A stretch of 22,009 nt of DNA from IMG/VR virus record IMGVR_UViG_3300046450_001120, positions 1-22,009 of that record; one strand, written 5' to 3'. The translations under genes and the position numbers were made by a program. Within the stretch, counting starts at the first letter, position 1, and each line of letters begins with the position of its first letter. The notes under the pieces are model-generated. The model was not told the origin of the DNA, did not search any database, and was given only the letters and a program-made list of their open reading frames with translations. Of the stretch, positions 915 to 22,009 are shown piece by piece. The DNA comes from a virus.

Positions 915-935
915 AATTCTGGTAATGTCTCTGAT

Positions 936-2272: not shown

Positions 2273-2748
2273 CGAACCAATCCAGTTCGCATCCGCGGTT
2301 TGAGGTCCAACATCCTGAATTTATTAAAAATATGGTTGGGACCAAGTTTGGAGAAAACGGGTTCCCCGCTGGGGTCGCTGCTTGGCTTGAGGTCGCGATT
2401 GTAGATATTGATGATGTGCATGGTGTGTGTCATTGCGCGTTCCTCGTCAAAGACGAGCACTTAATGTTTACCGGACAACTACACGGTGCTTGCTTGGCTT
2501 CCCTTGTGGACACGGCTATGCCATTAGTTGTTTACCCCTTTGTTCCTGCTGGCACTTGGGTAGCGACCTCTAATTTCAGTATCGACTATCTGAAGAGCGT
2601 GGAAGACGGCATTTGTGACGCTTATTCAACGATTGAATCCCTGAGTAAGAGTGCTGCTGTTGTTACAACCCGTATGGAAAACAAAGGTCGGCTGGTTGCT
2701 CTTGGTTCTGGAACTGTCAAGTTAAAGCGAATTGGTGATAAGACATGA
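2269..2748 (+). CDS. PaaI-like hotdog-fold thioesterase
   Basis: This 159-residue protein resembles the PaaI/4HBT hotdog family, which hydrolyses acyl- or aryl-CoA thioesters. The diagnostic block is GQLHGACLASLVDTAM, with H72-G73 and D81 on the long hotdog helix. It is followed by strands ATSNFSIDYLKS and a terminal VALGSGTVKL strand, where the family usually reads vA.gtgt. Length is slightly above the family's usual 140 residues because of an N-terminal extension. It overlaps its neighbours by ATGA on both sides, so it belongs to the same transcription unit as the oxygenases and a DUF6065-like gene. This suggests that part of the pathway handles a thioester-bound or CoA-bound intermediate. 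That is inference, and housekeeping-type acyl-CoA hydrolysis is the alternative. Confidence 0.8.
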   Translation: MTNQSSSHPRFEVQHPEFIKNMVGTKFGENGFPAGVAAWLEVAIVDIDDVHGVCHCAFLVKDEHLMFTGQLHGACLASLVDTAMPLVVYPFVPAGTWVATSNFSIDYLKSVEDGICDAYSTIESLSKSAAVVTTRMENKGRLVALGSGTVKLKRIGDKT

Positions 2749-8076: not shown

Positions 8077-8876
8077 CTCCTGAAATAACCAATTTGGGTG
8101 GTGGGGTGATTCTATATGAAAACGCTTTCGAATTAGATTGGGCGTGGATGCGGTCGTTCTGTCATGAGACAACTGCCGCTGAGCGTGCGACAATGTATGA
8201 ACCGGGCGTGGATTCGATCACCGGGGAAGAGGGCTACATCAACAAGAGTGGCTACTTTTTTGAGAAGGATTCAGTTGATGAGATGCCATGGAGGGGTTCG
8301 GCTACCCATCAAGATACACGATCTGAAGTAATTGAAGTTTTGGATAGTATCGAAAAGGCCAGAGACTTGTGTCTGTGGTATTACCTGCATCAGTTCCCAC
8401 TTGCTGGTAAATGTATTTGGTGGAAGATTAAGAGCCATCTTGTGGCATACCCTCCGGGGGTATATCTAGGGATGCATTCAGATATCAGCACAGATTACGA
8501 ATACGGTAGACCGGAACCGGTAGACCAGTTGGCAACGAGGAATGTTGTTTCGGTTGTTGCATATTTGAATGATTGCGTGGACACCGAAGAGGAACTGGAT
8601 GGCACAAACTTTACCGACGGTCACCATAACTTCGCCTATCTGGACATCTCCTACAAGCCCAAGAAGGGCGACATGCTGTTCTTCCCTTCTAACTATGTGG
8701 CGGCTCATGAGGTTCAGCCCGTTGGTAAGGGTATTCGCTATACTTATCTAGGTTGGTACTGTCAAGGCACTCCCAACCCGGCAGTGCGTGAATCAGTAAT
8801 AGATCCACAAAAAGACCCTGAGTTGGCTAAGACGGCCACAAACGTCTATATGGAAAATGGATACAGACTCCCTTAA
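8073..8876 (+). CDS. 2OG-Fe(II) oxygenase, prolyl-4-hydroxylase-like
   Basis: This 267-residue member of the local oxygenase family opens with NLGGGVILYENAF, an N-terminal signature repeated in several siblings. CIWWKIKSHLVAYPPG precedes the ligands H135 and D137 (GMHSDIS); H212 (AAHEVQP) and R222 (GIRYTYLGW) complete the site. The usual GGE strand is altered to DGHHNFAYLDI, and an acidic insertion (TEEELDGTNF) precedes it. The start is ATG 8073 in an ATGA overlap with the preceding gene. An upstream in-frame TTG at 8064 is less likely. The end overlaps the Rossmann-domain gene by 20 bases. Confidence 0.87.
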   Translation: MTPEITNLGGGVILYENAFELDWAWMRSFCHETTAAERATMYEPGVDSITGEEGYINKSGYFFEKDSVDEMPWRGSATHQDTRSEVIEVLDSIEKARDLCLWYYLHQFPLAGKCIWWKIKSHLVAYPPGVYLGMHSDISTDYEYGRPEPVDQLATRNVVSVVAYLNDCVDTEEELDGTNFTDGHHNFAYLDISYKPKKGDMLFFPSNYVAAHEVQPVGKGIRYTYLGWYCQGTPNPAVRESVIDPQKDPELAKTATNVYMENGYRLP

Positions 8877-9441
8877 AATAGGAATAACACATCCGGGCAA
8901 AATGGGTTCCAGTGTTGGTGCCGTCTTGGTTGGAGAAGGTCACGATGTCATCTGGGCGTCTGAGAACCGGTCGGAAGAAACAACTCAAAGGGCTTTGGAC
9001 GCCGGGTTGCGGGATGTCCAATCTTTTACTCAGATGGCCAAAGAAGCCGATGTGATCTTTTCGATTTGTATGCAGCCGGGGCCATTAAAGGTTTTTGAGA
9101 AAGCCGTTGAAGAAGGTTTTACTGGCATTTTTGTAGATGCCAACTTTATCGATGACAATTTTGTGCTTGAATTTAATCAGATGGGGGCCGATGCAGATTT
9201 CCCCTTCGTGGATGGCGCTATTTATGGTTATCCAATCCCCGGCCCGGATGGTTTTACGTCGGAGCGGTCGTTCTATCTTCACGGAGATGATGCACTGTTA
9301 ATAGCGAATCTGTTTGAGGGAACCCCATTTGACGGAATCGTTCTGGACGAATCGGCAAAAGTTTTCCGAGCGCGTCGAATGGCAGAAGAAACACCACCTC
9401 CGGATACTGATCGGGACACTGATGCAGCAGAATCTGACTAA
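8857..9441 (+). CDS. Rossmann-domain protein, 6PGDH/3-hydroxyisobutyrate dehydrogenase-like, N-terminal domain only
   Basis: This 194-residue protein resembles the NAD(P)-binding domain of beta-hydroxyacid dehydrogenases. KIGITHPGKMGSSVGAVLV is the dinucleotide-binding loop (G14, G17 and G21 in place of the usual GLGxMG). ADVIFSICMQPG and FVDANF follow, then FVDGAIYGYP, where the family reads vDapvsGg. The C-terminal helical domain that supplies the catalytic Lys and the dimer interface in full-length enzymes (about 290 residues) is missing. The protein ends instead in a short acidic tail (PPPDTDRDTDAAESD). There is no sign of a frameshift, since the next oxygenase starts within its 3' end. 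It may be a nucleotide-binding partner or a remnant. Start ATG 8857 overlaps the previous gene by 20 bases. Confidence 0.72.
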   Translation: MDTDSLKIGITHPGKMGSSVGAVLVGEGHDVIWASENRSEETTQRALDAGLRDVQSFTQMAKEADVIFSICMQPGPLKVFEKAVEEGFTGIFVDANFIDDNFVLEFNQMGADADFPFVDGAIYGYPIPGPDGFTSERSFYLHGDDALLIANLFEGTPFDGIVLDESAKVFRARRMAEETPPPDTDRDTDAAESD

Positions 9442-10147
9442 TGGAATCGTCGTATTTAGCGATGTCATAGAGATAGATCAACAGTTTTTATCTGAATGGC
9501 TAGAGCGTCGTCGGGAAAACGAGCCTGATGATTACACAGTAAATGAAGACGGCGATTATATCAATCGTGGTGGGTACAAGTTCACTCCTGATCAATACCG
9601 TTCCGCTCCCGGTAGGTTTTTGAATCTGGTTCCTGAAGGTGTGAGTAGCGAAGATGAGTCTTTTGTTGAATCATTGGACGCTGCCCTGCATGTGTGTTTA
9701 CTGGAGTATGTAAAATTATTCCCTGAAGTGGCGTCTTCCGTTTGGTGGAGGTCACCCGGCCATGTTGCTACCTACAGGGATGGACAGCACATGGGCAGTC
9801 ATCACGATAATGGTGTTCAATATACGCCGGGTTTAACCCCGGAGAACGAACACGCCATACACAACGTAGTAACTGCGTCAATAGCGTTGAATGATGGTTA
9901 CAGCGGGGGTGAGTTGAAGTTCGCCCATGGTGGTTCGTCTCTCATCCCACCCACTGGAACTGCGGTGTTTTATCCATCCAACTACATCGGTTCCCATGAA
10001 GTGACACCAGTAACCTCTGGGGAACGTTATTCGTATTTGCAATTCTTCGGTCAAGGAACTCCGCTTGGATCGAAAAGCGCCGCTGAATGGTTTCCTAATC
10101 TTCTCAACGTCCATGATCAGGCAAGCGAGACAGAACCGACGGAATAG
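9422..10147 (+). CDS. 2OG-Fe(II) oxygenase, prolyl-4-hydroxylase-like
   Basis: This 241-residue protein is the last gene of the plus-strand run. The ligands are H127 and D129 (GSHHDNG), H192 (GSHEVTPV) and R202 (SGERYSYL). SVWWRSPGHVATY, YSGGELKF and FFGQGTP place it in the same local family as its neighbours. The start is set at ATG 9422 because NLTNGIVVF directly after it aligns with the opening of its siblings. An upstream in-frame start at 9314 would add 36 unrelated residues. It overlaps the Rossmann gene by 20 bases. Its 3' end overlaps the oppositely oriented oxygenase at 10104 by 44 bases, with its stop codon inside a small hairpin. Confidence 0.86.
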   Translation: MQQNLTNGIVVFSDVIEIDQQFLSEWLERRRENEPDDYTVNEDGDYINRGGYKFTPDQYRSAPGRFLNLVPEGVSSEDESFVESLDAALHVCLLEYVKLFPEVASSVWWRSPGHVATYRDGQHMGSHHDNGVQYTPGLTPENEHAIHNVVTASIALNDGYSGGELKFAHGGSSLIPPTGTAVFYPSNYIGSHEVTPVTSGERYSYLQFFGQGTPLGSKSAAEWFPNLLNVHDQASETEPTE

Positions 10148-10898
10148 GCGTATCGCCTAATGCTTCTCTGAAATCTTTTGCTATATCAGGAAGCCAAGAT
10201 TTACCTTGTGTTCCGGGTTCACGAATGTCATGGACAACAACGTTGCGGTCTGGTGAAGAAGAACCTTGAGCAAAGTTTGCTAAATATGAATAACGACTTC
10301 CTGATGTAACTTCTTTAACTTCATGAGTAGCCATAAAATTGGAGGGAAACATGAGCAGATCTCCGGCTGCGAGTTCGACATCAAGGTCTAAATATTTGAA
10401 GCCCATTGTTCCGCCAGCAAAATCGTTATTCAAAACAAGACTGCATGAAACGACCTGATTGAGTGCTGATTGGTCCACGGGAAAGTCACCGTAGACATAG
10501 TTGACATCATTATCACAATGCGACCCGTATTTAGATCCAGTGGGGTAGTAGGCAACATGGCCTCCTATTTCCCACCAGACACATGGAAAAGCATCAGGAA
10601 AGAGAGAGAAGTAGTCAAGTAGTTTTTGATAGATGGCTTTATCGCAAGATCCAAAAAACTCTGGGTTGAGGATTACTCCCGGTCCCGTAATTCTGGTTGG
10701 ATCTTTGTACAGGTCTTCTTTGTAAATGGTGTGACCACTCAGATTGACACCATATTCGATTTTCCCATTATCGTCGTAGGAGAATTCGTACATGGTGTTG
10801 AACGCTGTTTCCACCATGCGGAAAAGTTCAGGAACTATGTGATCTGGTATGTCGATTATTTTTTCAAATAAAACGACTCCTCCACCTAAATGGTTCAT
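10104..10898 (-). CDS. 2OG-Fe(II) oxygenase, prolyl-4-hydroxylase-like
   Basis: This 264-residue protein opens with MNHLGGGVVLFE, the family's N-terminal signature. The ligands are H127 and D129 (GSHCDND), H192 (ATHEVKEV) and R202 (GSRYSYLA). These are the same residue numbers as in the convergent gene at 9422. CVWWEIGGHVAYYP, FAGGTMGFKYLD and NFAQGSS match the shared layout, with GGT replacing the usual GGE. It starts in an ATGA overlap with the upstream gene (AGAGGA just before the ATG) and is the last gene of the minus-strand run. Its 3' end runs 44 bases into the end of the plus-strand oxygenase. Confidence 0.86.
   Translation of the reverse strand: MNHLGGGVVLFEKIIDIPDHIVPELFRMVETAFNTMYEFSYDDNGKIEYGVNLSGHTIYKEDLYKDPTRITGPGVILNPEFFGSCDKAIYQKLLDYFSLFPDAFPCVWWEIGGHVAYYPTGSKYGSHCDNDVNYVYGDFPVDQSALNQVVSCSLVLNNDFAGGTMGFKYLDLDVELAAGDLLMFPSNFMATHEVKEVTSGSRYSYLANFAQGSSSPDRNVVVHDIREPGTQGKSWLPDIAKDFREALGDTPIPSVLSRLPDHGR
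10145..10159. terminator. Small hairpin at the convergent gene junction
   Basis: TAGGCG-TAT-CGCCTA is a perfect 6-bp stem with a 3-base loop. It lies where the two converging operons end and contains the TAG stop of the 9422 gene. No T-run follows on either strand, so a bidirectional intrinsic terminator is only a weak possibility. On the minus strand the same bases are coding. Confidence 0.3.
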
Positions 10899-11911
10899 GT
10901 TCCTCTTTGCAGATTAATGTCTACGACATCTCCGTGGTCGTAAGCCTGCGCTAATCCTTTTTCGCCTTCTAAAGTTCGGTTCTGGTAAACGGGATTCGTT
11001 CTGTCCGTCATGTCTCTGCCAGTACCCTTTTCCGTGTGTTCCACATACTTAGCGTAATCGTCGTAGATGTGGTTTAACCAGTGTGGAGGACACCACGAGT
11101 CGATGTCCTCCGGTTCTACGACATTGATCATTACTTCCGGTTGTGGGCTTCCCTGAGAAAAGAATTCCAGATAGGTGTAGCGTTCTCCTGCGGTGACAGT
11201 GTTGACCCCGTGGGTGGCCAAGAAGTTGCATGGAAAGATTATTACATCCCCGGTCTGTCCTTGATAGTTGATATCCAAATACGGGAAGTTCATTTCTCCA
11301 CCTGTGTAATTGGTTCCGTCTAGTTGATCTGCTGATTCAACACCATTGTTGAGATATAGCAGAACAGCCAAAGTTTGGCGTGAGGCTGCTTGTCCTTGTG
11401 GGATATATTTGTGTCCGTTGGTGGCCCGGAAGTTCGTATCGTTATCGTTGTGTGTGCCGAGAAAGGTGCCCTCGTTGTAGCGAAGAATGTGTCCCCTGTT
11501 GCGCCACCAGAGGGTGCCTAAAACCATTGGGAAAAAGTCCACATAACGGATGAGGCATTTGTAGATCATGTTTTCCCAGTATTTGAGAACTTCAACATTG
11601 GTTAACGGAGTAGAAGGTGTTACTGGGTCTAAAACTCTGGTGGGGACGAGTTTGACTTGTTCAAGATCGAACTTGTTTAAGTCTTCATTGAGGGCGTAGG
11701 TGACCCCGTTTTCGTCAGTTTCGTAGGTCCAACGTTGCTCGTGGGACAGTTTCGCTTCAGTGTCAATCCACGGGAACATGAATTTCGGTACGGTGACTGC
11801 TTTCCGGAATCGAACTACACCGCCGCCGATATGTTCAGCGTCGTAAGAACTAATTTCTTTTAAGGCGTCGTCCGTTATCTCAGGGGTAGTTGCATCGAAC
11901 AGAGCATTCAT
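10895..11911 (-). CDS. 2OG-Fe(II) oxygenase, prolyl-4-hydroxylase-like, long form
   Basis: This 338-residue protein carries the shared core: IGGGVVRFRK near residue 28, TLWWRNRGHILRYNEG, H154 and D156 (GTHNDND), YTGGEMNFPYLDINY, H234 (ATHGVNTV), R244 (GERYTYLEF) and FFSQGSP. It extends about 80 residues past the core. That tail contains NPVYQNRTLEGEKG, closely matched by NPVQQNRPIEGHPEG at the end of the 11908 protein, so these two are the nearest pair of the family. It overlaps both neighbours by ATGA. The N-terminal extension of about 25 residues, compared with its downstream sibling, is acidic. Confidence 0.87.
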   Translation of the reverse strand: MNALFDATTPEITDDALKEISSYDAEHIGGGVVRFRKAVTVPKFMFPWIDTEAKLSHEQRWTYETDENGVTYALNEDLNKFDLEQVKLVPTRVLDPVTPSTPLTNVEVLKYWENMIYKCLIRYVDFFPMVLGTLWWRNRGHILRYNEGTFLGTHNDNDTNFRATNGHKYIPQGQAASRQTLAVLLYLNNGVESADQLDGTNYTGGEMNFPYLDINYQGQTGDVIIFPCNFLATHGVNTVTAGERYTYLEFFSQGSPQPEVMINVVEPEDIDSWCPPHWLNHIYDDYAKYVEHTEKGTGRDMTDRTNPVYQNRTLEGEKGLAQAYDHGDVVDINLQRGT

Positions 11912-12861
11912 GCTGCTGGCCGTGGTAGCAGCGGACCCTCAGGGTGTCCTTCTATCGGTCTGTTTTGTTGGACGGGATTCAAGAGACCCTCTGTCTGGGC
12001 GGACACGGAATGCCCGGAGTTGTAATACATTTCGTAATCTTGGAAAATCCATGGCAGGTAGACGGGGGAAACCCAAGGGGCGACTTCATTTGCTTCGGTG
12101 ATCCCAACTACCTCATCTCCACCTTGTCCGAAATTGGACAGGTAGACGTATCTTTCTCCTGATGTAATACGGCGGACGCCGTGCGTTCCAACGTAATTTT
12201 GGGGGAAGAAAAGAAGGTCACCTGTAACCGGTTTATATTGGACATCGGTGTAGGGGAAATACATTTCTCCCCCTTCGTATTCATCGTTCAAATAGATAAT
12301 GCAGGCTAAAACTTGATAGATGGCCTGTGGCCGACTGGTCGGATGTCTCTGTCCGTCCACAACGCGGAAGTTTGTGTCGTTATCGTTGTGTTCTCCTAGA
12401 AGGCCGTTGGGTCCGTATTTGAGGATATGGCCACGATTCTTCCACCAAAGAGTATTTAGAATCATTGGGTGTATGTCGATGTATCTGATAAGAGATTTAT
12501 ATATAACTTCTTCACAGGACTGAAAGAAATTAGCAACCGGTTCGGGGGTGTCGTCCTGCACGGGCATATTGTTTGGATCGGACCCTAAACGGAGTGCCTG
12601 TTCGGACAGCATTTCTAAACCGTGTTCGACTTCGTTGCCCGAAAAGTCTTCGGCCCAACGCTTTCCGTTCTTTTCTACAACCTTGATACCGCAATCAGCG
12701 AAGGTAACCCGTTCGTCCAGATAAGGGAGAACAGATTTTTGATCAACGTCAATGGCATTTTTGAACAAGACAATGCCACTGCCATAGTTGTGCAGTTCCA
12801 ATTCAGAGATAGGTTGACAGTCGGAACTGCCAATCATCGGTATTGGAAATACAGATTTCAT
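11908..12861 (-). CDS. 2OG-Fe(II) oxygenase, prolyl-4-hydroxylase-like, long form
   Basis: This is a 317-residue protein. The ligands are H158 and D160 (GEHNDND), H227 (GTHGVRRI) and R237 (GERYVYLSN). TLWWKNRGHILKYGP, YEGGEMYFPYTDVQY, GDLLFFPQNYVG and NFGQGG complete the family layout. The C-terminal tail shares the NPVxQNRxxEG block with the 10895 gene. It is the first of three co-oriented oxygenases; the 27 bases upstream to the next gene show no terminator, so readthrough from the small-protein genes is likely. It ends in an ATGA overlap with the next oxygenase. Confidence 0.87.
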   Translation of the reverse strand: MKSVFPIPMIGSSDCQPISELELHNYGSGIVLFKNAIDVDQKSVLPYLDERVTFADCGIKVVEKNGKRWAEDFSGNEVEHGLEMLSEQALRLGSDPNNMPVQDDTPEPVANFFQSCEEVIYKSLIRYIDIHPMILNTLWWKNRGHILKYGPNGLLGEHNDNDTNFRVVDGQRHPTSRPQAIYQVLACIIYLNDEYEGGEMYFPYTDVQYKPVTGDLLFFPQNYVGTHGVRRITSGERYVYLSNFGQGGDEVVGITEANEVAPWVSPVYLPWIFQDYEMYYNSGHSVSAQTEGLLNPVQQNRPIEGHPEGPLLPRPAA

Positions 12862-12888
12862 TAACCTAGATTATCAGAGAAAAATTCA

Positions 12889-13134
12889 CTATGCGGGAAT
12901 GGCATCGCGTTCTGTTTTTAGACTGACATGACGAGCGACGGCGGCTTCCAAGGCTTGTTCCAACGCTCGTGGGTTGTTGACATCAGCAGCGGGGGCAGTG
13001 TAAGAAGTAGACAGGGTGTCGGGGGGATTACCGGTGGCCCAACCAAGCCTGTAGATGTCTAACTCGGTGCTGGTCATGCTGTTTAAAAGTAGTTCTCGCT
13101 TTGTTGCGTTTGGGATAGTCGATTCAAAATCCAT
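12889..13134 (-). CDS. Small unknown protein, paralogue of the 14685-14915 product
   Basis: This 81-residue protein has no recognised domain. It starts MDFESTIPNATKRELLLN and later has LGWATGNPPDTLSTSYTAP and a helical end rich in Ala and Glu. The same pattern occurs in the 76-residue product at 14685-14915: MDFLST, then NxL, then LSWGVGxxPxxLAADYTAP, then a Glu/Ala helix. The two are therefore ancient duplicates. AGAGG lies shortly before the ATG and supports the start. It appears soluble. In a phage context it could be a virion or assembly component, but nothing in the sequence shows this. Confidence 0.7.
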   Translation of the reverse strand: MDFESTIPNATKRELLLNSMTSTELDIYRLGWATGNPPDTLSTSYTAPAADVNNPRALEQALEAAVARHVSLKTERDAIPA

Positions 13135-13142
13135 AGCAGCCT

Positions 13143-13892
13143 CTACGCCGTCCTCTTACAGATGGTTACACCGTGTTCCATTGGTATATGATAGACCGTA
13201 AAGTTAGTTTTAGCGGCAAGGTGTTTAGCGAATCGTGCATAAAAACTAGTATGTGTTCTGGCTAGTCCACCAGCATACATGGATGTCCATTCGCTTGATT
13301 CAAACCAGATCATTACGCCGCCGACTTTTAATGTATCCAAGTAGGCATCTAGAAGTTTTGTGTTTGGGCCAAAGAAACCTATGGGGGTGCTTCGCACAGC
13401 GTCGTAAGTTCCGGACAAAGACCCGTCAAGAATGTCTTGCTCGTCTACTACCGAATATCGTGCATCGGGATACCGCGCTGCCACGCTTGGTTGCGTGAGA
13501 GCGAACTGTTCAAAGTGGTGAAGATTCCAATTGTTTACAAATGTGTATTCTCGTCCTGTATCTCCATCACCATTAAAGAAACAAGGATGAGTGATGCGAC
13601 TGGGAGAAAGTATTTTTAAAGTGTCCCCAGTGTCCGACATGTCTATGATCATGTTTTCTACGGTGTAGGCCATCCACATCACCGCAGCCCAATTCGGGTC
13701 TGGGTTCTGGTAAGTTTCGTATTGGATGAGCGCATAATCATCAGAGATAGCGATGCTTCTACGATCTAAATTGATTGAGTCGTAATAAGCAAGTATGGCA
13801 GTTGAGTAGTCGGCCACCACCTCTCCATCTATTTCAGCACTATTGGAGTATTTCTGAGCGATACGACTTGTTTCAAACCAGTGGCTGGACAT
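13143..13892 (-). CDS. Unknown protein, degenerate class I methyltransferase-like
   Basis: This 249-residue protein has a C-terminal half that resembles the later motifs of class I methyltransferases: YSVVDEQDILDGS, then YDAVRSTPIGFF, then LLDAYLDTLKVGGVMIWFE (similar to the motif where methyltransferases read LkpGG.li) and a final VYHIPMEHGVTICKR strand. The glycine-rich SAM-binding loop expected in the N-terminal half cannot be seen; that part reads LKILSPSRITHPCFFNGDG. It is therefore either a diverged methyltransferase, an inactive fold used structurally, or unrelated. It starts in a 1-base TAATG overlap with the upstream small gene and ends 8 bases before the 81-residue gene. Confidence 0.6.
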   Translation of the reverse strand: MSSHWFETSRIAQKYSNSAEIDGEVVADYSTAILAYYDSINLDRRSIAISDDYALIQYETYQNPDPNWAAVMWMAYTVENMIIDMSDTGDTLKILSPSRITHPCFFNGDGDTGREYTFVNNWNLHHFEQFALTQPSVAARYPDARYSVVDEQDILDGSLSGTYDAVRSTPIGFFGPNTKLLDAYLDTLKVGGVMIWFESSEWTSMYAGGLARTHTSFYARFAKHLAAKTNFTVYHIPMEHGVTICKRTA

Positions 13893-14209
13893 TATGCAGC
13901 CTCCGCTATCTGGCGTTGTCGGTATGCCCGTCGGGCGAGTTGAACCAAAAGTGATCGTTCGGTATCAAGATAGTTATTTGCTGCACTAACGGTTTCTTTG
14001 CCGCCCATCAATGATTTTTCTGCGTTTTCTGGTCCAGAGTAATTGTTGCGAATGGCGTTAATGACATCATCAATGGTCAGAGTGGCATCGTCTGCCCAAT
14101 CCAAACCGGCAATAAATGTAAGAACTGCCATGTTGGCTTCAGCGGCATTCAAATGTCGTGCGGCGTCGTAAAGAGATCCTGTCTCTTCCCAACTGTTTCG
14201 TATAGCCAT
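13892..14209 (-). CDS. Small unknown protein
   Basis: This 105-residue protein is mostly helical in appearance, with heptad-like Ala/Leu spacing. It includes SLYDAARHLNAAEANMAVL, LTIDDVINAIRNNY and a basic Arg-rich segment near the end (LARRAYRQRQIAEAA). There is no signal peptide or membrane segment, and no family is recognised. GAAGG lies 7 bases before the ATG and supports the start. The stop overlaps the start of the methyltransferase-like gene, so the two are probably translationally coupled. Confidence 0.65.
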   Translation of the reverse strand: MAIRNSWEETGSLYDAARHLNAAEANMAVLTFIAGLDWADDATLTIDDVINAIRNNYSGPENAEKSLMGGKETVSAANNYLDTERSLLVQLARRAYRQRQIAEAA

Positions 14210-14223
14210 AGTTAGTCCTTCGA

Positions 14224-14466
14224 CTAGATAATGCTGTCTTCCGTGTTCCGCTCACAAAACATGGTGTACAGGTCTGATGCGAATTCGGTGGCGTTTAGTT
14301 CCTTGTTCCAACGAGGGGTATCGTTGTCTCTCTCTTTTTCATGGGGTTCGGAATCATCGGCGTTGTCATAGGCAAAAGTTGTTTCGGATATTGCACGGCC
14401 TTTGTTTTTAGCGTTAGCAACTTGTGAAACGTCGGGAACGTACAAGCGTGGTTCCGGATAACTCAT
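14224..14466 (-). CDS. Small unknown acidic protein
   Basis: This is an 80-residue protein beginning MSYPEPRLYVPDV. The start at 14466 forms an ATGA overlap with the upstream gene and is preferred over an in-frame start at 14505, which would run 43 bases into that gene. The middle is highly charged and probably disordered (DDSEPHEKERDNDTPRWNKE), followed by a short helix ending in MFCERNTEDSII. No family is recognised. It belongs to the small-protein operon. Confidence 0.6.
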   Translation of the reverse strand: MSYPEPRLYVPDVSQVANAKNKGRAISETTFAYDNADDSEPHEKERDNDTPRWNKELNATEFASDLYTMFCERNTEDSII

Positions 14467-14672
14467 GCCAGTGCTTCTAAGGCCGCTGCCTGCCTTTTGA
14501 GACAATCGTAGGCTTTGTAATTGGTGTGATCGGCAGCAACCGGGATTACCAGAGAACTGCTTATCTCGTCAGAGGCGACACCCAATGTTAGGGCGAGAGA
14601 CAGAGTGGAGTATTCCAGATATTCTTTAGCGTCCGCTTTTGCGGCAGTAACTTCCGCTTCGGTTAAAGCCAT
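14463..14672 (-). CDS. Small unknown protein, possibly related to the paralogous pair
   Basis: This is a 69-residue, Ala-rich helical protein. AGGAG, overlapping the stop of the preceding gene, lies 9 bases before the ATG. The segment STLSLALTLGVASDEISSSLVIP followed by a Leu/Ala helix has the same order as the LSWGVGIDPNDLAADYTAP-plus-helix layout of the 14685-14915 product. It may be a third, more diverged member of that family (weak). It ends in an ATGA overlap with the 80-residue gene. Confidence 0.62.
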   Translation of the reverse strand: MALTEAEVTAAKADAKEYLEYSTLSLALTLGVASDEISSSLVIPVAADHTNYKAYDCLKRQAAALEALA

Positions 14673-14684
14673 TTTGCATCACTC

Positions 14685-14915
14685 CTATAGGCTCGCAAGT
14701 TCGGCTTTAATCGTAGCCAAGGCGGCGAGTTCGGCCTCTAATTGTGTTTCTGATGGGTTCGCTGTCCCAACAGGGGCGGTGTAGTCGGCAGCAAGATCAT
14801 TCGGATCAATGCCGACGCCCCAAGAGAGTGCGAAGATGCTTGTCTCCCTGTCGGAAATGAGGGTATTAAGCATTGCTGTTTTATCCGCTGTGGAGATAGT
14901 AGATAGAAAGTCCAT
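14685..14915 (-). CDS. Small unknown protein, paralogue of the 12889-13134 product
   Basis: This 76-residue protein opens MDFLSTISTADKTAML, then LSWGVGIDPNDLAADYTAPVG, then a Glu/Ala helix. It is the first gene of the small-protein array and matches the last one (12889-13134) in order and spacing of conserved residues. A candidate promoter lies about 60-90 bases upstream (14974-15002). It has no hydrophobic segments long enough for a membrane helix. Function is unknown. Confidence 0.7.
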   Translation of the reverse strand: MDFLSTISTADKTAMLNTLISDRETSIFALSWGVGIDPNDLAADYTAPVGTANPSETQLEAELAALATIKAELASL

Positions 14916-14973
14916 TAGTGGAGACCTCGTTCGTAGACATAGAACATCTTGACCACAGCATACCCTAAATTGT

Positions 14974-15002
14974 ATTCTACAGATGAAGATTCATTAGTTC
15001 AA
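14974..15002 (-). promoter_or_regulatory. Candidate sigma70-type promoter for the small-protein operon
   Basis: Read on the minus strand, TTGAAC (14997-15002) and TAGAAT (14974-14979) are separated by 17 bases. They match the -35 and -10 consensus at 4 of 6 and 5 of 6 positions. The -35 overlaps the last codons of the upstream oxygenase, and the start of transcription would fall about 50 bases before ATG 14915. The 78-base gap (14916-14993) is the largest within the minus-strand run, which is consistent with an internal promoter. Transcription from here has not been shown. Confidence 0.42.
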
Positions 15003-15578
15003 GTCATAAGCGGACCAATCTTGGTCCGTGCTGGCTTGCGGTTCGACTGGTTCTACGTTTGCGCTTAAAACTACTCTTGTGTTTGACATTTGTCGGGTCG
15101 TCCAATGTGTCAGATAGGACGGGAAAATTACTAGCATCCCGGCTGTCGGCTGAATGCGCGTAACAGTTTCTTGTGAATTGGCGTATGGAACACCGAACAC
15201 AAGTTGGGCATCGCTGAACGTAGCGGTTGGATAATATGCGATAGAGAAATATTCGTGCGGATTCAAATGACTGTTAGATTTGTGCGAATGGGGTTCCACT
15301 GATTCTCCCTTTTGAAGAACCAATCCCCACATCGCTGAAACTTTGTATTCTTGGGAAAGAATTTGAGAGGTTTTTTCTTCGATTGCCGCTCTGACTTCCT
15401 GCATTAACGGCGTATCTTTCAACACCAGATCCTCATAATAAGTGTGAGTCTTGTGTTCTTCTGAGTATTCTCCCGGCACTGGTCGTCCGTCAGCGAACAC
15501 TTCGTGGTGAACGTCCCCGCCTTTGAAATCCAAGGTTGTGGTGTAGACATCGACGCTAAGTAGATTAATTCTTTCCAC
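14994..15578 (-). CDS. 2OG-Fe(II) oxygenase-like protein, HxH type (2OG-FeII_Oxy_5/TIGR02466-like)
   Basis: This 194-residue protein has a different oxygenase layout from its neighbours. VSAMWGLVLQKGESVEPHSHKSN supplies H97 and H99 (HSH, where others have HxD), FSIAYYPTA is the strand after it, and AGMLVIFPSYLTHWT gives H158, with R168 in NTRVVLSANV. This resembles the small family known as 2OG-FeII_Oxy_5/TIGR02466. The start is GTG 15578: AGGAG at 15583-15587 lies 4 bases before it, and it overlaps the upstream gene by 14 bases. An upstream in-frame start at 15650 would overlap that gene by 86 bases. Whether it is active with HxH is uncertain. Confidence 0.78.
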   Translation of the reverse strand: MERINLLSVDVYTTTLDFKGGDVHHEVFADGRPVPGEYSEEHKTHTYYEDLVLKDTPLMQEVRAAIEEKTSQILSQEYKVSAMWGLVLQKGESVEPHSHKSNSHLNPHEYFSIAYYPTATFSDAQLVFGVPYANSQETVTRIQPTAGMLVIFPSYLTHWTTRQMSNTRVVLSANVEPVEPQASTDQDWSAYDLN

Positions 15579-16278
15579 GATTCTCCTGCCCTTCACGATA
15601 GAACTGTCCTGTTGCCAAGGCGCTCGGCGGTGAATCCTTGTGCCACACATTCACAACCATCACCTGACGGTCCCCCCAACCAGCAGGTTGAGTTTGATGC
15701 ACCCGACGACCCGCATCAAAAACTATCAAACGATTCGTCTTGTAAGCAATTCGTTCCAAGCGATCGGGGGGAGACAACAAAGTTTCCATGTGCTTTTCTT
15801 CTAACGCATTCGACGGATTTCCTTCGATGCTCCCTTCATGGAGTTCCAGAAATCCACCATCACCAGATTCAGAGAAGCCATACCAGATGCATCCGGTTAC
15901 GGGCGCGTTGAATTCGTGGCTCTTTTCGTAAAGGAAAGTGTCTTCATCCACATGAGGTTTCAAGAATTGACCTGCGTTGAATGTTCTACACCAGTATTCA
16001 AACCCTGCTATTTCGTCACGTTCGTATTCTAAGACTCCCGGTGCCGACCAGATTTCTTGAATAATCTTCTTTCGTAAGGTATCTGCCGGGGATTTCCACC
16101 AACCCTCCCAAAACATGTAGGGAGCAAAGCAATCACATTCTTGGTCGTGGAATCCATTCAGCGTGTACCCAACTTCTTCCGGGTTGTTCTCATCTACCGT
16201 AATGGGAAAGAAGTTTTTATCGCTCTTGACGGCACCCGTCAATACGGGGCTGCGAATGAAATCATCTATAACAAGCAT
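15565..16278 (-). CDS. 2OG-Fe(II) oxygenase
   Basis: This is a 237-residue protein and the first gene of the minus-strand run. CRTFNAGQFLKPHVDED gives H109 and D111. DGGFLELHEG corresponds to the GGE-type strand, NRLIVFDAGRRVHQTQPAG gives H194, and DRQVMVVNVW gives R204. The N-terminus MLVIDDFI is typical of this fold's opening. It is more distant from the six-gene local family and resembles general phage-type 2OG oxygenases. The divergent intergenic region upstream (16279-16440) probably holds its promoter. It overlaps the next gene by 14 bases. Confidence 0.82.
   Translation of the reverse strand: MLVIDDFIRSPVLTGAVKSDKNFFPITVDENNPEEVGYTLNGFHDQECDCFAPYMFWEGWWKSPADTLRKKIIQEIWSAPGVLEYERDEIAGFEYWCRTFNAGQFLKPHVDEDTFLYEKSHEFNAPVTGCIWYGFSESGDGGFLELHEGSIEGNPSNALEEKHMETLLSPPDRLERIAYKTNRLIVFDAGRRVHQTQPAGWGDRQVMVVNVWHKDSPPSALATGQFYREGQENRGKN
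15583..15587 (-). promoter_or_regulatory. Ribosome binding site AGGAG
   Basis: On the minus strand AGGAG lies 4 bases before GTG 15578. It is the main reason for choosing this non-ATG start for the HxH oxygenase-like gene. Confidence 0.6.
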
Positions 16279-16440: not shown

Positions 16441-16647
16441 ATGGCTGAGTACAAAGATCTAGCCGAACGAACAATTGCGACATTTATTCAGGCTGCTATC
16501 GGTGCCATGGGTACCAATAGTGTTATGGATTTAGGCGTTGATAATTGGAAAATGATCCTGATGGCCGGTGTGTCAGCAGGTGTTGCAGTTATCAAGGGCT
16601 GGGCCGCAAGTAAATTCGGTGATCGCTCACCGTCGATGATGGCGTAG
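16441..16647 (+). CDS. Putative r1t-type holin
   Basis: This 68-residue protein resembles holins of the phage r1t family found in actinobacterial phages. A short charged start (MAEYKDLAERTIATF, compared with DLAERxxKTF in known members) leads into a first hydrophobic segment at about residues 9-25. A second lies at about 36-56 (WKMILMAGVSAGVAVIKGW), followed by a short tail, ASKFGDRSPS, close to the family's S..GD..S ending. Holins form membrane lesions that trigger lysis. No endolysin lies next to it in this window. Start ATG 16441 has GAGG 7 bases upstream. It is the strongest single indication of a phage in this window. Confidence 0.75.
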   Translation: MAEYKDLAERTIATFIQAAIGAMGTNSVMDLGVDNWKMILMAGVSAGVAVIKGWAASKFGDRSPSMMA

Positions 16648-16739: not shown

Positions 16740-17192
16740 ATGGATGATGATCTGCGAAAACGCTTACAACAGGTAGCGGATCTACTTTCGCGACCCTTAG
16801 AAGAGACAAACGCTGGGGCAGACCCGGATGTTGGTAGTGCTGTTTTAGGTACGGCTAAACAGGCAACTGAAAAAGTTACAAGCCTGATTGACCGAATCAA
16901 AGACAACATTGCTTACGTTCTGGGTTTGCCCGCAGCAATTTCTGGAGCCTTTGGGTTCCTGTGGCAGTCCTCTGGAGAGGAGGCTGCGCTGGGTTATCAA
17001 GTCGCCCAGTTAGAAGAAGCCGTAGCAGAACTGAAATCAGAGAATGATCTTCTTGGCGGAGGAACGAAGAACTTTTCTTTAGACATGAGCGGAGCACCCG
17101 GTGGTTCGGTGACCGTGATTGTTATTGCCGCAAGTTTGATTCTTTTAATGGGACTTCTTTTCTGGTACCAAAGTAAACGCAAAAAGCGGTAG
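16740..17192 (+). CDS. Unknown membrane protein with coiled coil and basic tail
   Basis: This 150-residue protein has an amphipathic helical start and a hydrophobic segment at about residues 57-75 (AYVLGLPAAISGAFGFLW). A coiled-coil-like stretch follows at about 86-104 (QVAQLEEAVAELKSEND). A strong membrane helix spans about 123-142 (SVTVIVIAASLILLMGLLFW), followed by the basic tail YQSKRKKR. The positive tail suggests that the C-terminus is cytoplasmic and the bulk lies outside, or that it is tail-anchored. No family is recognised. Its place after the holin would suit an accessory lysis protein, and its place before a giant lipoprotein would suit a membrane partner of that protein. The next gene starts 4 bases after its stop. 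Confidence 0.68.
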   Translation: MDDDLRKRLQQVADLLSRPLEETNAGADPDVGSAVLGTAKQATEKVTSLIDRIKDNIAYVLGLPAAISGAFGFLWQSSGEEAALGYQVAQLEEAVAELKSENDLLGGGTKNFSLDMSGAPGGSVTVIVIAASLILLMGLLFWYQSKRKKR

Positions 17193-17196
17193 CGTC

Positions 17197-20100
17197 GTGA
17201 GACGGCTTGCCGCTGTTTTCTTTGCTGGAGCATTGTTCGCTTCGGCCTGTTCCTCAGGTACTTCCACGGAACCGGTTGATCTGTTCCCTGACGAGACAAC
17301 CACAACCGTTCTTGGGGAAACTGCTACTACGTCGATTACTCCGATCTTAATTAAAACAGCCCCATTGGCAGATCATGCCATTCCAAATTATATGGCATCA
17401 GAAGATTCGTTTTCTTTTGCAAACTTTGGTGGTGGTGAAGCCCCAGCCGACTTGACGGTGAACATGGCGCGTCGCCTATACGGCGATAGCCAAGTTTGTT
17501 TAGATGTCTCTAATGGGCAATGTACGCCTTATCCGGTAATTCTTCAGTTGATGTCACAGGCCAACAAGTCGATGCGTGGTGGGCTGTGTGAAGGTCTGGC
17601 AGTTTTGAGTTTGAGGCTTTCTGGTGATATCGAAACACTGTTGGCTTACCAGAATACTCACACCGTTTCACAACTTATTAAAGAAGATCCGGCGCTCCTT
17701 TCTGAAATTGCGTACTGGTATGTAACCCAGTTTGCGATGGAGGTTCAGGAAACGGCATCCGCTTTCTTGGAGAAGTCACCTGCCGAATTGGCACAAGTGT
17801 TGATGTATGACTTTGCTGAAGCAGAAAAAGGTAATGCACACACTGGCTTTACAATCGGTATTTACAGCGAGATGGGTGGACACGCTGTCACGCCTTACCG
17901 GGTGGAAGAGATGCCCAGTGGTTATCGCATCTATATCTACGATTCTAACTGGCCGGGTGAGGAACGCTGGATAGATGTTTCTAAAGAGGGTCAGTGGATT
18001 TATGCACTAGCGGCCACTAACCCAACAGAGCAGGCAGAGGCGTGGTCTGGTGGTACGGGAACAATGGAACTCACGCCGATGCGAGCGCGTTCTGGTCCTT
18101 TCACTTGCAGTTTCTGCCCCAAGGAAGAGGGAGAAGAATCGGGCACGATGCTTACCGTCGCTGCTTCTGGCGACAAGCAAATGTCTATCAAGATTGAAAC
18201 GTCATCAGGTGACAGGCTTGGCTATTACGACGGCGCATTTGTAAATGAGATCCCCGGAGCGACTTATCGTTATTTGATTTCAGGGCCGAGTACTGCTGAT
18301 CCTGTCTTGGTTTTTCTTCCACCCGGAATCGATGACTTCAATGCAGATGTTGTGCAAATCGAAGTTCCCACTCCAGCAGCAAAGGAAGCGACTTCTTCCA
18401 AGGATCGTATAGAAGCACTTTTGGAAGAAAAAGTAGAAGAAGAAACCCAACAGAAGTTTTCCTTACTTGTTTTGAATGAAGAAAAATCAGTCCAGATTGA
18501 AGCAATTATCGTTGAGGAAGAGGAACTTGAACGGTGGGAGCAGCCAGAGGAAGATGCAGAACCTGAAGAAATTCAATCACTTTTGGCTTTCTCTGATGAC
18601 GCCATTGAGATCGCAGATATTGAAGAAGCGACTGTCGCAATCGCCGTAGCCGCATTGGAAGTCGAAATCGAATTAGAGGCAGGACAGCAGATAGCGGTTA
18701 CCTTTGCACTGGAACCACCTGCGGTTGAACCAGAACCGACAGCACCGGGACAACCAGAAGCGCCAGCGGTCGAACCAGTTCAGGATTTCTTGAATATTGC
18801 CATTCAGGATGACACGGGTGAAATGTTGGCTGAGGTTGAAGTTGATCTTTCCGACTACAGAATCGAAGATGTTGAAGAGCGTGGCCCTCCACCGACTGTC
18901 GTTCCGGGTCAACCCTCCCAAGAAGAACCAGACATTGAGCCTGTCACTGTTGTTCCTCTGAGTATTGAAATCTCCTATGACGTAGAAGCCGGGGAGATTA
19001 TTCAAGAAGAAACAGAGATCGAAGCGTGGGTTGCTACGGACGCCGAATATTACCAAGCCGTTGCAGAGGATCGCATTGAGGAGGTGCTTGGCGAGTCTTA
19101 CGTTGAAGACATCTTGGAGATTGAAGAAGACTGGGAGATTCTGGAGGTACCAGAAGAAGAAGAAATCGACTTCGCTGCAATTCTTCTTGATGTCGATGAC
19201 GACTACTGGGAAGACGAGCAGTGGGACGAAGTCGAATACGACGACGAATGGTTTGAAGAAGAACAGGAGTTAATGGATGAACTGTTTGGCGAATCATTCA
19301 ATGTGGAAGAACTCTTTGAAGAAGTTGAAGAATTTGTAGAGGAAGTCGAAGAAGAGCGTGAACTGTTTTTCATTGAGTATGAGATGGAGGAAGAGGAGTT
19401 CTGGGATGCAGTAGAAGAAGAAAACTACGAAGACGATTTCGCATTCCATGAATACAATCCCGAACTTGAAGAGCAACGCATTCTGGAAGAGATGGGGCTG
19501 GAAGAATGGAACCAAACCCTCATGGGTCCGTCTCCCACCGAGACTGTCGATTGGGTAGAAGAAGATTGGATTGCCTACGACGAGGAAATGGAGTCCATCT
19601 GGGAAGAGGAGATGGAAGATCCCGCATTGTGGGAAGAAGAACTACTGGAGGAATTGGGCATAGAGGAGTGGCCCGAAGATTGGGGACCGTCGCCCACGGA
19701 ATCCGTTGAGTGGACCGAAGACGACTGGGACACCTACGACCAAGAACGATCAGCGACCGATGAAGCACGGATTCTTGAAGAGGAAGGCTTTGACGAATGG
19801 CCCGAAGATTGGGGTCCATCACCTACTGAAAGTGTGTTATGGGAAGAGAGCGATTGGATCGCCTACGACGAGGAAGAGCAAGCACGCTGGGAGGAAGAGG
19901 AAGAGTCGTGGGAACTAGACACCGAAGAGGAATGGGACGAATGGCAGGAAGAATTCTGGCCCGAGGATGCGGATTGGTGTGACGACTGTGAAGAGGGACC
20001 GTGGGATGACCCGGAATGGGACGAACCATGGGAACAAGAAGACTGGACTGGTGAAGACGAAGAAGCCCGGATTCTTGAAGAGATAGGACTTGAGGAATGG

Positions 20101-22009
20101 CCAGAAGATTGGGGTCCAAGCCCATCTGAATCATGGGACTGGGAAGAGGAAGATTGGATCGACTACGACGAGGAGCGTGAAGATCTTTGGGAGGAATTCC
20201 CTGAATCGGATTGGGTAGATGACGAGTGGTCTGGTGAAGATGAAGAAGCATGGATTCTTGAGGAAGAAGGTTTCGATGAATGGCCGGAAGATTGGGGTCC
20301 GTCACCTACTGAATCGTGGGATTGGACTGAGGATGACTGGCAGGAATATGATGAAGAGCAACAACAAAACTTCTTTGAAATGCTTGAAGGTCTTTCCGAT
20401 GAAGAGATGGAGGAATGGGAAGAAGAACTTTCTGAAGAAGACGAGTGGGAAGAGCCTTGGCTTGAAGAGGAGTGGGGGGATGAGGATTGGACGGGGGAGG
20501 ACGAAGAGCAATGGATCTTGGAGCAGGAGGGTTTCGATGAATGGCCTGAAGACTGGGGACCGCCTCCTTCAGAGACATGGGACTGGACTGAGGAACAGTG
20601 GCAGACTTTTGGCGAAGAGCAAGAAGCCCTATGGGAAGAAGAATGGGAGGACAACGATGACGACTGGGGCGAGGAAACTGAGGAGGCACCTAGCGAAGAC
20701 GCTCTCCTTCAAGACGGACTAGAGGTCTGGCCCGGATGGGACAACGAAGAGTGGTCTGGCGACGACGAAGAAGCATGGATACTTGAACAAGAAGGTTTCG
20801 ATGAGTGGCCTGAGGACTGGGGTCCATCCCCCAGTGAGTCATGGGATTGGACTGAGGACGAGTGGCAAGCATTTGACTTGGAGCAACAAGAGTTGTGGGA
20901 AGATGAGGTAGACCCGTTAAACGACCCGGAGGGCACAGACGACCTTGATCAAGACGCAGAACCCGGCACAGATATACCTTCAGAAACGGAAGTGGATGAA
21001 GAGCAAATGGGCGAAACGGAGATGCGTAATGAAGAAGGGATAGACCCTCATCACGACCTAGACTCGTGGTCTGGTGAAGATGAAGAAGGCTGGATTCTGG
21101 ACCAAGAGGGGCTAGATGAATGGCCGGAAGACTGGGGACCGTCGCCTAGTGAGTCGTGGGATTGGGAGCCAGAGGACTGGCAGGCTTACGACGAGGTACA
21201 TGGAGTACCTCCACCTCCGGAGCCAGAGCCACAGCCGGAAGAAGAGTTATGGGACGACCCTTACGAGAGTTGTAGGGGCACGTCAGCGTGCGACTCCGCT
21301 CCCGGTGGTTACGACGACTGGGAAGATTATGACGCAGCGAACGATCCTGCCTATTACGACGACTGGGGTACCCCGCCGGGCGGGTACACCACATGGGCTG
21401 GTTTCACTCTTGAAGTTGAAGCAGGAATAGTTCCCATGGACGTTGCTCTTGAATACATTCCTGATGAGGTGCAAGAGGTTTATATACCCCAACTCCAACC
21501 TCAGCCTGTGCCTGCGATTTATTATCCAACCATTACCTATTCTCACAGCAATACGGCAATATCTGAGACGATCTCTACATCCTCATCTACCGCCCAGACG
21601 GGGACAACAACAACGACGAATGTCACAACTGCCGAGTCAGGGATCTTGACCCACAACAGCAACGACGGGCATTGGCATTTAGATACAACAACGGAAACTT
21701 CGACGGCTACGACGGTCACCAATACTCTTGTAGACACAACGACCGTGGTGGCTCGCACCGGGTCCGATATGACGACCTGCGCGTATGTGGATGGTGCTGT
21801 TAGCGAATGTGGGACAGTGCGCGGGTGGAGTCCTGAAACTACAACGGTTACTGTCGGTGATTCTTATACGCAAGCCTCCACGACAACAGCGGTGGTGTCA
21901 GCGACTGTGGTTACCGAGGAAGGCTGTGCCGAGGGTGGCTGGAGAGGCATGGGGGACTGGTGCATCGTGCAATCCTCTAGCCGCCAAGACCGCGACCATA
22001 TCCAGTTTT
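17197..22009 (+). CDS. Giant lipoprotein: papain-like domain, acidic Trp-rich repeats, Thr-rich region (3' partial)
   Basis: The frame stays open from GTG 17197 to the window end (1,604 codons, no stop). Residues 2-18 (RRLAAVFFAGALFASAC) form a lipoprotein-type signal with candidate lipid-modified C18, followed by a Thr-rich linker. Residues of about 65-310 resemble a papain-like cysteine peptidase: GGLCEGLA (C131), GGHAVTPY (H229), YDSNWPG (D249/N251) and a CSFC pair (C304, C307). I recall similar domains from uncharacterised bacterial secreted proteins. From about residue 390 the chain becomes very acidic, and from about 760 to 1340 it holds eight Trp-rich units. The last part is Thr/Val-rich with Cys pairs, suggestive of beta structure. 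The GTG start is supported by the signal peptide and by the 4-base gap after the previous stop. The function is not known; a surface-exposed or secreted protein is likely. Confidence 0.85.
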   Translation, partial: MRRLAAVFFAGALFASACSSGTSTEPVDLFPDETTTTVLGETATTSITPILIKTAPLADHAIPNYMASEDSFSFANFGGGEAPADLTVNMARRLYGDSQVCLDVSNGQCTPYPVILQLMSQANKSMRGGLCEGLAVLSLRLSGDIETLLAYQNTHTVSQLIKEDPALLSEIAYWYVTQFAMEVQETASAFLEKSPAELAQVLMYDFAEAEKGNAHTGFTIGIYSEMGGHAVTPYRVEEMPSGYRIYIYDSNWPGEERWIDVSKEGQWIYALAATNPTEQAEAWSGGTGTMELTPMRARSGPFTCSFCPKEEGEESGTMLTVAASGDKQMSIKIETSSGDRLGYYDGAFVNEIPGATYRYLISGPSTADPVLVFLPPGIDDFNADVVQIEVPTPAAKEATSSKDRIEALLEEKVEEETQQKFSLLVLNEEKSVQIEAIIVEEEELERWEQPEEDAEPEEIQSLLAFSDDAIEIADIEEATVAIAVAALEVEIELEAGQQIAVTFALEPPAVEPEPTAPGQPEAPAVEPVQDFLNIAIQDDTGEMLAEVEVDLSDYRIEDVEERGPPPTVVPGQPSQEEPDIEPVTVVPLSIEISYDVEAGEIIQEETEIEAWVATDAEYYQAVAEDRIEEVLGESYVEDILEIEEDWEILEVPEEEEIDFAAILLDVDDDYWEDEQWDEVEYDDEWFEEEQELMDELFGESFNVEELFEEVEEFVEEVEEERELFFIEYEMEEEEFWDAVEEENYEDDFAFHEYNPELEEQRILEEMGLEEWNQTLMGPSPTETVDWVEEDWIAYDEEMESIWEEEMEDPALWEEELLEELGIEEWPEDWGPSPTESVEWTEDDWDTYDQERSATDEARILEEEGFDEWPEDWGPSPTESVLWEESDWIAYDEEEQARWEEEEESWELDTEEEWDEWQEEFWPEDADWCDDCEEGPWDDPEWDEPWEQEDWTGEDEEARILEEIGLEEWPEDWGPSPSESWDWEEEDWIDYDEEREDLWEEFPESDWVDDEWSGEDEEAWILEEEGFDEWPEDWGPSPTESWDWTEDDWQEYDEEQQQNFFEMLEGLSDEEMEEWEEELSEEDEWEEPWLEEEWGDEDWTGEDEEQWILEQEGFDEWPEDWGPPPSETWDWTEEQWQTFGEEQEALWEEEWEDNDDDWGEETEEAPSEDALLQDGLEVWPGWDNEEWSGDDEEAWILEQEGFDEWPEDWGPSPSESWDWTEDEWQAFDLEQQELWEDEVDPLNDPEGTDDLDQDAEPGTDIPSETEVDEEQMGETEMRNEEGIDPHHDLDSWSGEDEEGWILDQEGLDEWPEDWGPSPSESWDWEPEDWQAYDEVHGVPPPPEPEPQPEEELWDDPYESCRGTSACDSAPGGYDDWEDYDAANDPAYYDDWGTPPGGYTTWAGFTLEVEAGIVPMDVALEYIPDEVQEVYIPQLQPQPVPAIYYPTITYSHSNTAISETISTSSSTAQTGTTTTTNVTTAESGILTHNSNDGHWHLDTTTETSTATTVTNTLVDTTTVVARTGSDMTTCAYVDGAVSECGTVRGWSPETTTVTVGDSYTQASTTTAVVSATVVTEEGCAEGGWRGMGDWCIVQSSSRQDRDHIQF
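19477..21210 (+). repeat. Eight degenerate acidic Trp-rich repeats inside the giant lipoprotein
   Basis: The consensus core is (A/E)xILExEGxDEWPEDWGPSP, followed by (S/T)ESWDWTEDxWQxYDEE. From the fourth unit onward it is preceded by DW(S/T)GEDEE. The WPEDW block (diverged to WNQTL in the first unit) begins at 19507, 19669, 19798, 20098, 20281, 20542, 20806 and 21121. Spacing is therefore irregular, 43 to 105 residues, because the linkers are variable acidic sequence. The core differs by substitutions but hardly at all in length. This suggests an old set of duplications under protein-level constraint, not a young DNA satellite. Confidence 0.9.
21541..21900 (+). other. Thr-rich segment of the giant lipoprotein
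   Basis: This coding stretch is dominated by Thr, Ser and Val (for example TSSSTAQTGTTTTTNVTT and SPETTTVTVGDSYTQ) and contains the Cys-bearing segment TCAYVDGAVSECG. Alternating Thr/Val suggests beta strands or a stalk, and such regions are often glycosylated in actinobacterial surface proteins. The domain continues past the window end. Confidence 0.7.

Follow-up and report, generated by a model that had tools for sequence, protein, structure and literature searches.

A giant predicted lipoprotein with acidic, tryptophan-rich repeats and a small membrane-protein partner form a conserved module, often beside lysis genes, in putative phages of marine actinobacteria

An analysis of a 22,009-base IMG/VR virus contig (the window, meaning this whole stretch) reveals a giant predicted lipoprotein, F2, whose gene directly follows that of a small membrane protein, F1. 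Sequence comparisons establish the F2 family and its architecture, and show that F2 is conserved, is almost always paired with F1 and, in several clades, is located beside lysis genes. From these features, we infer that F2 is exported and lipidated, that it cleaves a target as a peptidase, and that it is expressed late and contributes to lysis. F2 would then be a late envelope lipoprotein/protease linked to the lysis cassette and a non-homologous counterpart of spanin or LysB, a reading to which we assign a probability of about 40%. An extracellular shield or decoy, as the original prediction proposed, is the other of two live explanations. The protein family, repeat fold and two-gene module defined here are missed by existing libraries, though they occur on about 100 viral contigs. 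In putative phages of marine actinobacteria, hosts with a poorly known envelope, the module adjoins a holin gene or an endolysin gene.

The F2 coding frame (17197..22008, plus strand) starts with GTG and comprises 1604 codons with no stop up to the window end, where the contig end truncates the C-terminus, in agreement with the single continuous frame of more than 1,600 codons originally described. The N-terminus reads VRRLAAVFFAGALFASAC-SSG, in which residues 1-18 (17197..17250) form a signal peptide with a lipobox-like FASAC sequence ending in Cys18. The lipobox of the window, ASAC, is relaxed with Ala at -3, and those of relatives are canonical (LSGC, LASC). The features of an SPII substrate (a basic n-region, a hydrophobic h-region and a lipobox Cys) are present in the window, and only a few relatives lack them; the predicted lipoprotein signal is thus found across the family. 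The signal is followed by a Ser/Thr-rich linker (residues 19-69; 17251..17403), a peptidase-like head, an acidic region predicted to be beta-rich from a low-confidence model (residues 401-660; 18397..19176), and a Glu/Asp/Trp region that carries the repeat units (residues 661-1340; 19177..21216), both delimited by composition, the latter also by unit alignment. Residues 401-1340 contain 377 D+E and 17 K+R; the very acidic part, put originally at roughly 900 residues, is thus about 940 residues long. Residues 660-1330 comprise 93 D, 201 E, 72 W, 0 K and 8 R, and the mature protein has a calculated pI of 4.05 and a charge of about -424 at pH 7.

Relatives of F2 are found in many metagenomes. A search of IMG/VR with the first 401 residues returns 33 relatives, and searches with wider alignments return at least 91 and at least 100 viral contigs, with head identities to the query of 58 to 100%. 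As judged from substitution patterns, all F2 regions are under strong purifying selection: dN/dS ranges overall from 0.06 to 0.16, and a comparison of the window with its relative L003 gives 0.08 for the head, 0.15 for the beta-rich acidic part, 0.16 for the unit region and 0.13 for the Thr-rich part. These results bear on whether the frame is an assembly chimera or a spurious low-complexity frame, a doubt that had been raised at the outset. The extreme composition and the truncation of the frame at the contig end would suit such an artefact, but the relatives on about 100 contigs come from separate metagenomes, dN/dS is low throughout, and the start, the partner and the C-terminal domain are conserved, which leaves it a negligible chance, and the artefact is ruled out. 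A cellular host gene was also considered and rejected; the sole match in a single genome scan (L037), a fragment of the F2-type gene on a contig of 3.3 kb assigned to a Phycisphaerae MAG, most likely comes from a misbinned virus.

Alignments place a putative papain-like peptidase domain and a following beta domain at residues 70-388 (17404..18360, plus strand). This head contains the motifs GGLCEG, GGHAVTPY and YDSNWPG, and its key residues are Cys131 (17587-17589), His229 (17881-17883), Asp249 (17941-17943) and Asn251 (17947-17949), together with a CxxC pair at 304/307. Cys131, His229, Asp249 and Asn251 (window numbering) are invariant throughout the family and are retained, as is the CxxC pair, in a head homologue with about 27% identity (E 3e-9), the 501-residue hypothetical protein WP_307846829.1 of a Rhodococcus plasmid; this conservation strengthens the earlier description of a peptidase-like domain. 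By sequence comparison, the head belongs to an unnamed family that is also encoded on actinobacterial plasmids. A secreted cysteine peptidase of the papain-like kind (clan CA type) would be consistent with the order Cys - His - Asp/Asn and with the CxxC pair. A search of Pfam, NCBIfam and PDB yields no family match for the head, and the AlphaFold model of the N-terminal 632 residues has a pLDDT of 42, at which its Foldseek matches are meaningless and its secondary structure is compatible with the papain-like arrangement, in which a catalytic Cys starts a helix and His and Asp/Asn follow in strands. Because of the lack of a family match and the poor model, "peptidase" is used here as a term drawn from the motifs. 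The Rhodococcus protein contains neither the acidic repeat region nor the Thr-rich stalk and has no family match in Pfam or PDB; its gene (L140:7854-9359) lies upstream of transposition genes (TniB/TniQ and a Mu-type transposase).

The Glu/Asp/Trp region contains seven exact WPEDWGP cores, where 6e-5 would be expected from composition, and one degenerate core, WNQTLMGPSP (19507..19536), which together account for the eight WPEDWGPSP-type units originally noticed. Two further WPEDWGPSP cores lie at 19669..19695 and 19798..19824. The remaining five are each contained in a 49-residue unit defined by alignment, all on the plus strand: 20041..20187 (core 20098-20124), 20224..20370 (core 20281-20307), 20485..20631 (core WPEDWGPPP, 20542-20568), 20749..20895 (core 20806-20832) and 21064..21210 (core 21121-21147). 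The nine-residue motif is therefore real, but the true unit is longer, about 45-49 residues, and the alignment gives W[ST]xEDEExxILEExG[LF]xEWPEDWGPSP[ST]ESWDWTEEDWQAYDEE. Across 16 unit copies from the window and relatives, 18 columns are invariant and consist largely of Trp, Pro and Gly plus acidic residues. Among the five C-terminal units, synonymous sites are near saturation (pS 0.63-1.0) at a protein identity of 63-82%, which indicates that the units are old and under selection and are not a recent DNA stutter.

A structure prediction for the relative L005 (AlphaFold, 11-row alignment) gives the unit blocks a pLDDT of 76-88 and most of the remaining sequence low confidence; each unit is predicted to fold as a helical hairpin, in which the WPEDWGPSP turn connects two helices. 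No relative of the repeat/C-terminal model is found by Foldseek in PDB or BFVD at E<=0.001. Likewise, the units match no described family in Pfam, where none of the 16 units tested reaches E<1, nor in PHROGs, PDB or INPHARED, and no literature on a WPEDWGPSP-type repeat was found. In a unit-profile search of IMG/VR confirmed by tblastn, the matches are only further copies of the F2-type protein. The repeat thus stands outside the characterized families covered, as had been suspected. A match of the unit profile to MvaT in PDB (E 0.038) was dismissed as chance, since it covers 20 residues and the matched MvaT stretch is not acidic. Copy number differs between F2 relatives, and the WPEDWGP units occur in the clade of the window and in some neighbors and are absent from the earliest-branching members, which indicates that they are an elaboration and cannot carry the original, core function.

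Beyond the units, a Thr-rich region and the start of a GGWRGMGDWCI segment (21454..22008, plus strand, by alignment with homologues) lead into a C-terminal domain that is cut off in the window. What had been taken for a Thr-rich end is therefore only the contig cut, since complete homologues continue for about 150-200 residues past the Thr-rich part into a PPC/DVUA0089-like domain, with C-termini of the form ...DDDGG...GDYVVRGSVYNNANSGWYRLTI or a diverged version of it. In L123, a deep member, the C-terminus reaches 51 bits against NCBIfam NF038127 (DVUA0089/FDP; cut-off 29) and also matches Pfam PPC (PF04151) weakly, with an E value of 0.0048. The C-termini of the window clade score below the NF038127 cut-off (13.8 bits for L005) and are tied to L123 by profile comparison only (hhalign 98.8%). 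On this sequence basis, the C-terminal domain of F2 is DVUA0089/PPC-like, which for the window clade means homology to L123. Complete relatives of F2 are 985-1733 residues long, except for one copy (L007:1064-3493) that stops after 809 residues within the acidic region, through either truncation or a sequencing error.

The partner gene F1 (16740..17192, plus strand) encodes a 150-residue membrane protein, as recognized by hydropathy and conservation, and is separated from F2 by a 4-base gap in the window. Its layout comprises a marginal TM segment (~56-75), a coiled coil (~80-105), a Gly-rich GGGTKNFSLDMSGAPGGS loop, a strong C-terminal TM segment (~122-143) and a basic tail, KRKKR. In nearly all relatives, F1 is located directly 5' of F2, and the two genes usually overlap by 4 bases. 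An independent scan for F1 finds F2 adjoining it in 61 of the 62 testable copies, and the last one (L101) has an F2 that the motif missed. F1 matches an Rz-like spanin in PHROG very weakly (E 0.024). It also scores 18 bits against TIGR01167 (LPXTG; cut-off 15.9), yet its sequence contains no LPXTG motif, and an LPXTG-anchored protein was rejected.

A holin-like gene of the Phage_r1t_holin type (16441..16647, plus strand; 68 residues, MAEYKDLAERTIATFIQAAIGAMG...) lies upstream of F1 and occupies the same place in many relatives. Its match to PF16945 (E 8.6e-7, 23.9 bits) falls under the gathering cut-off of 26.9, and the homologous gene on the contig of L116 exceeds it with 27.9 bits. A match to the r1t holin is present in 18 of 20 related records and above the cut-off in 12 of the 20; the holin and endolysin HMMs were partly seeded from these same neighborhoods, and Pfam's own models match too. 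With a separate holin match in these 18 records, F1 was rejected as the only holin. The r1t-type holin gene immediately precedes F1 in the window, L005, L010/L011, L017, L021, L027, L103, L107, L109, L111 and L116. In L008, L027, L114, L120 and L121, F2 is followed immediately (within 300 bp) by a gene for an M15-like protein with PG_binding_1, which is one gene away in L014, whereas L105/L107/L109/L111/L116 show the order M15-like endolysin - PG-binding protein - holin - F1 - F2. The deep clade L122/L125/L126 carries its endolysin and holin genes 1-3 kb upstream. The M15/VanY domain is weakly supported, with an E value of 0.0014 in one member and a motif seen by eye elsewhere. F2 was also rejected as a canonical endolysin, given that it lacks a peptidoglycan-hydrolase or PG-binding Pfam domain and that the PG_binding_1 protein is separate from it in 13 of 15 records. 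Neither endolysin nor holin is directly adjacent in the Borockvirus-like clade, L092, L097, L100 and L106. Because several arrangements, deep branches included, place lysis genes beside F1-F2, the association appears functional, although it is drawn from contigs related to each other and is not a formal test.

In L032, a terminase large subunit gene is located 1.6 kb downstream, and within INPHARED its product is closest to Streptomyces phages of the Borockvirus group (46-47%). Proteins similar to those of the same group are also encoded on the 100-kb contig of L080 (portal 52%, MCP 59%, scaffold 33%, sheath 30%). The closest long relative of the window, the 114-kb contig of L003, instead shows similarity to Gordonia phage GMA6 (TerL 40%, MCP 45%, sheath 38%). 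By these comparisons, the F1-F2 module is common to two unrelated lineages of actinobacterial myoviruses, one GMA6-like and one Borockvirus-like. In the midpoint-rooted head tree, the Borockvirus-like copies are nested within the GMA6-like ones, which suggests one transfer. The hosts would be mostly uncultured marine actinobacteria and probably have a monoderm envelope; Actinomarinales are considered unlikely to possess an outer membrane (PMC7771536). The L003 contig (L128-L133) additionally contains ORFs of 1743, 2243 and 1576 residues and a cluster of tRNA genes (Leu/Lys/Glu/Gln/Arg).

A comparison with known systems reveals partial likenesses. F1-F2 shares with the Rz/Rz1 spanins adjacent or overlapping genes, the combination of a coiled-coil membrane protein with a lipoprotein, and a site beside holin and endolysin. 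The two differ in that the clear TM segment of F1 is C-terminal, F2 has 985-1733 residues and an enzyme-like head compared with 40 mature residues in Rz1, and the hosts are probably monoderm. An i-spanin is defined by an N-terminal TM segment (N-in, C-out) and a periplasmic coiled coil (PMC6139136), a topology that F1, with its strong C-terminal TM segment, basic tail and only a marginal segment at ~56-75, does not have, and a two-component spanin of the Rz/Rz1 type was rejected. An o-spanin is an outer-membrane lipoprotein whose gene overlaps or adjoins that of the i-spanin; F2 has a predicted lipoprotein signal and the gene adjacency, and an outer-membrane location is unlikely in the probable hosts. 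LysB of mycobacteriophages and Gordonia phages is likewise encoded in the lysis cassette and proposed as a third lysis step in actinobacteria; however, it is an esterase of mycolyl-arabinogalactan, whereas F2, with its predicted lipid anchor, resembles a cysteine peptidase.

In light of these features, F1 and F2 may constitute a two-gene envelope module of large marine actinobacteriophages that is made late, with the holin and endolysin. F2 would be exported, receive its lipid at Cys18 and stay anchored on the outside of the cytoplasmic membrane, with F1, the small coiled-coil membrane protein, as its partner. Its PPC-type domain would be carried through the cell wall by the Thr linkers together with the long stretch of acidic repeats. 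The papain-like domain would cleave a wall- or surface-associated protein or a peptide bridge, such that, after the holin fires and the endolysin acts, the remaining outer layer opens. Its role for these hosts would resemble that of spanins in diderms or of LysB in mycolate-bearing hosts, and F2 is related to neither. This lysis role is suggested by the near-obligate pairing with F1, the holin and endolysin neighbors, the invariant Cys/His/Asp/Asn and the strong purifying selection, and it has a parallel in Gordonia phages, for which LysB is discussed as a third lysis component comparable with spanins (PMC9671378). It is weakened by the probably monoderm hosts, in which a spanin is not needed, by the lack of direct adjacency to lysis genes in the clade and contigs noted above and the C-terminal TM segment of F1, unlike Rz, and by the consideration that a protease exported by Sec would need regulation to avoid acting early. 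If the role is correct, F2 provides a third lysis step in hosts that are believed to have no outer membrane or mycolic acids. A more specific form, in which a lipid-anchored, wall-spanning cysteine protease together with F1 is the third lysis component of marine actinobacteriophages, the acidic Trp-rich hairpin arrays act as an extensible spacer or binder, and a proteinaceous outer layer of the little-known envelope is opened, is rather doubtful.

The neighborhood of holin, endolysin and membrane partner points to lysis or egress at least as strongly as to a shield or decoy. As a shield, F2 would mediate superinfection exclusion: its hairpin repeats would bind basic tail parts (tape measure, tail tip) of an incoming phage, the peptidase might clip these or the receptor, and a second injection would be blocked, in the manner of Ltp from Streptococcus phage TP-J34. 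Ltp combines a lipid anchor and a Ser-rich spacer with a repeat domain, and negatively charged residues of this domain contact the basic end of the tape measure protein (PMC3952083). F2 follows a similar plan: it is phage-encoded and has a predicted lipid anchor, a flexible Thr-rich spacer and acidic repeats that would lie outside the cell, with a helical hairpin as their predicted fold. Additionally, Aquarius gp41 of a C. acnes phage is described as an Ltp-like protein (PMC11480721), unit copy number varies among relatives, and the candidate tape-measure proteins of the two lineages are basic (pI 8.7 and 9.5), although these were named from size, place and charge only. Ltp, however, is a small protein without a peptidase domain, and its two conserved domains extend to residue 141, whereas F2 has a membrane partner gene and is often found by lysis genes; an enzyme-like head and a recurrent lysis-gene neighborhood are unnecessary for exclusion of the Ltp type. 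Membership of F2 in the Ltp family by sequence was rejected, as the 16 units give no Pfam match at E<1 and the whole protein nothing of note (CBM_21 at E 0.2 only). The earliest-branching members do without the units altogether. Exclusion is the chief alternative to the lysis role and somewhat less likely than it; if true, F2 is an unusually large surface shield.

The extreme charge of mature F2 and, in homologues, Asp-rich parts of the C-terminal domain that possibly bind calcium would also suit a binder of cations or cationic peptides, another idea of the original prediction, or of nutrients; the Glu/Asp/Trp region would buffer Ca2+/Mg2+/Fe or capture antimicrobial peptides outside the cell. 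We regard this as improbable, because the invariant Cys/His/Asp-Asn head, the membrane partner and the lysis neighborhood would be left unexplained, the makeup of the 18 invariant unit positions points to a folded unit and not just to a polyanion, and the deep members have a shorter acidic region and no units. Even less likely is that F2 resides in the particle or sticks daughter phages or cells together via its PPC-type domain. The PPC/DVUA0089-type C-terminus and a conserved neighboring gene product that looks jelly-roll-like are compatible with such a virion or adhesion component, but an N-terminal lipoprotein signal is unexpected for a virion protein, and in both of the long contigs inspected the F2 gene is located outside the tail operon. 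The neighbor in question, a gene for about 290 residues (L014:14759-15631 and homologues), is often found beside F2, is jelly-roll-like by eye and has no Pfam family; ferredoxin and nuclease genes lie near it.

Upstream of the holin, the window (3-16278) contains about 13 genes for Fe(II)/2-oxoglutarate oxygenases (2OG-FeII_Oxy_3, TauD and 2OG-FeII_Oxy_5; some under the Pfam cut-off), together with two GSHPx-like genes, one DUF6065 gene and one 4HBT gene, arranged almost head to tail. A similar oxygenase block recurs upstream of F1-F2 in several relatives, including Borockvirus-like ones, which suggests that it moves as a block. Modification of F2 by these oxygenases, as an obligate link, was considered and dropped, since the block is absent near many relatives. 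Within the block, three consecutive TauD-like genes (3464-6246) form one cluster and are apparently tandem duplicates.
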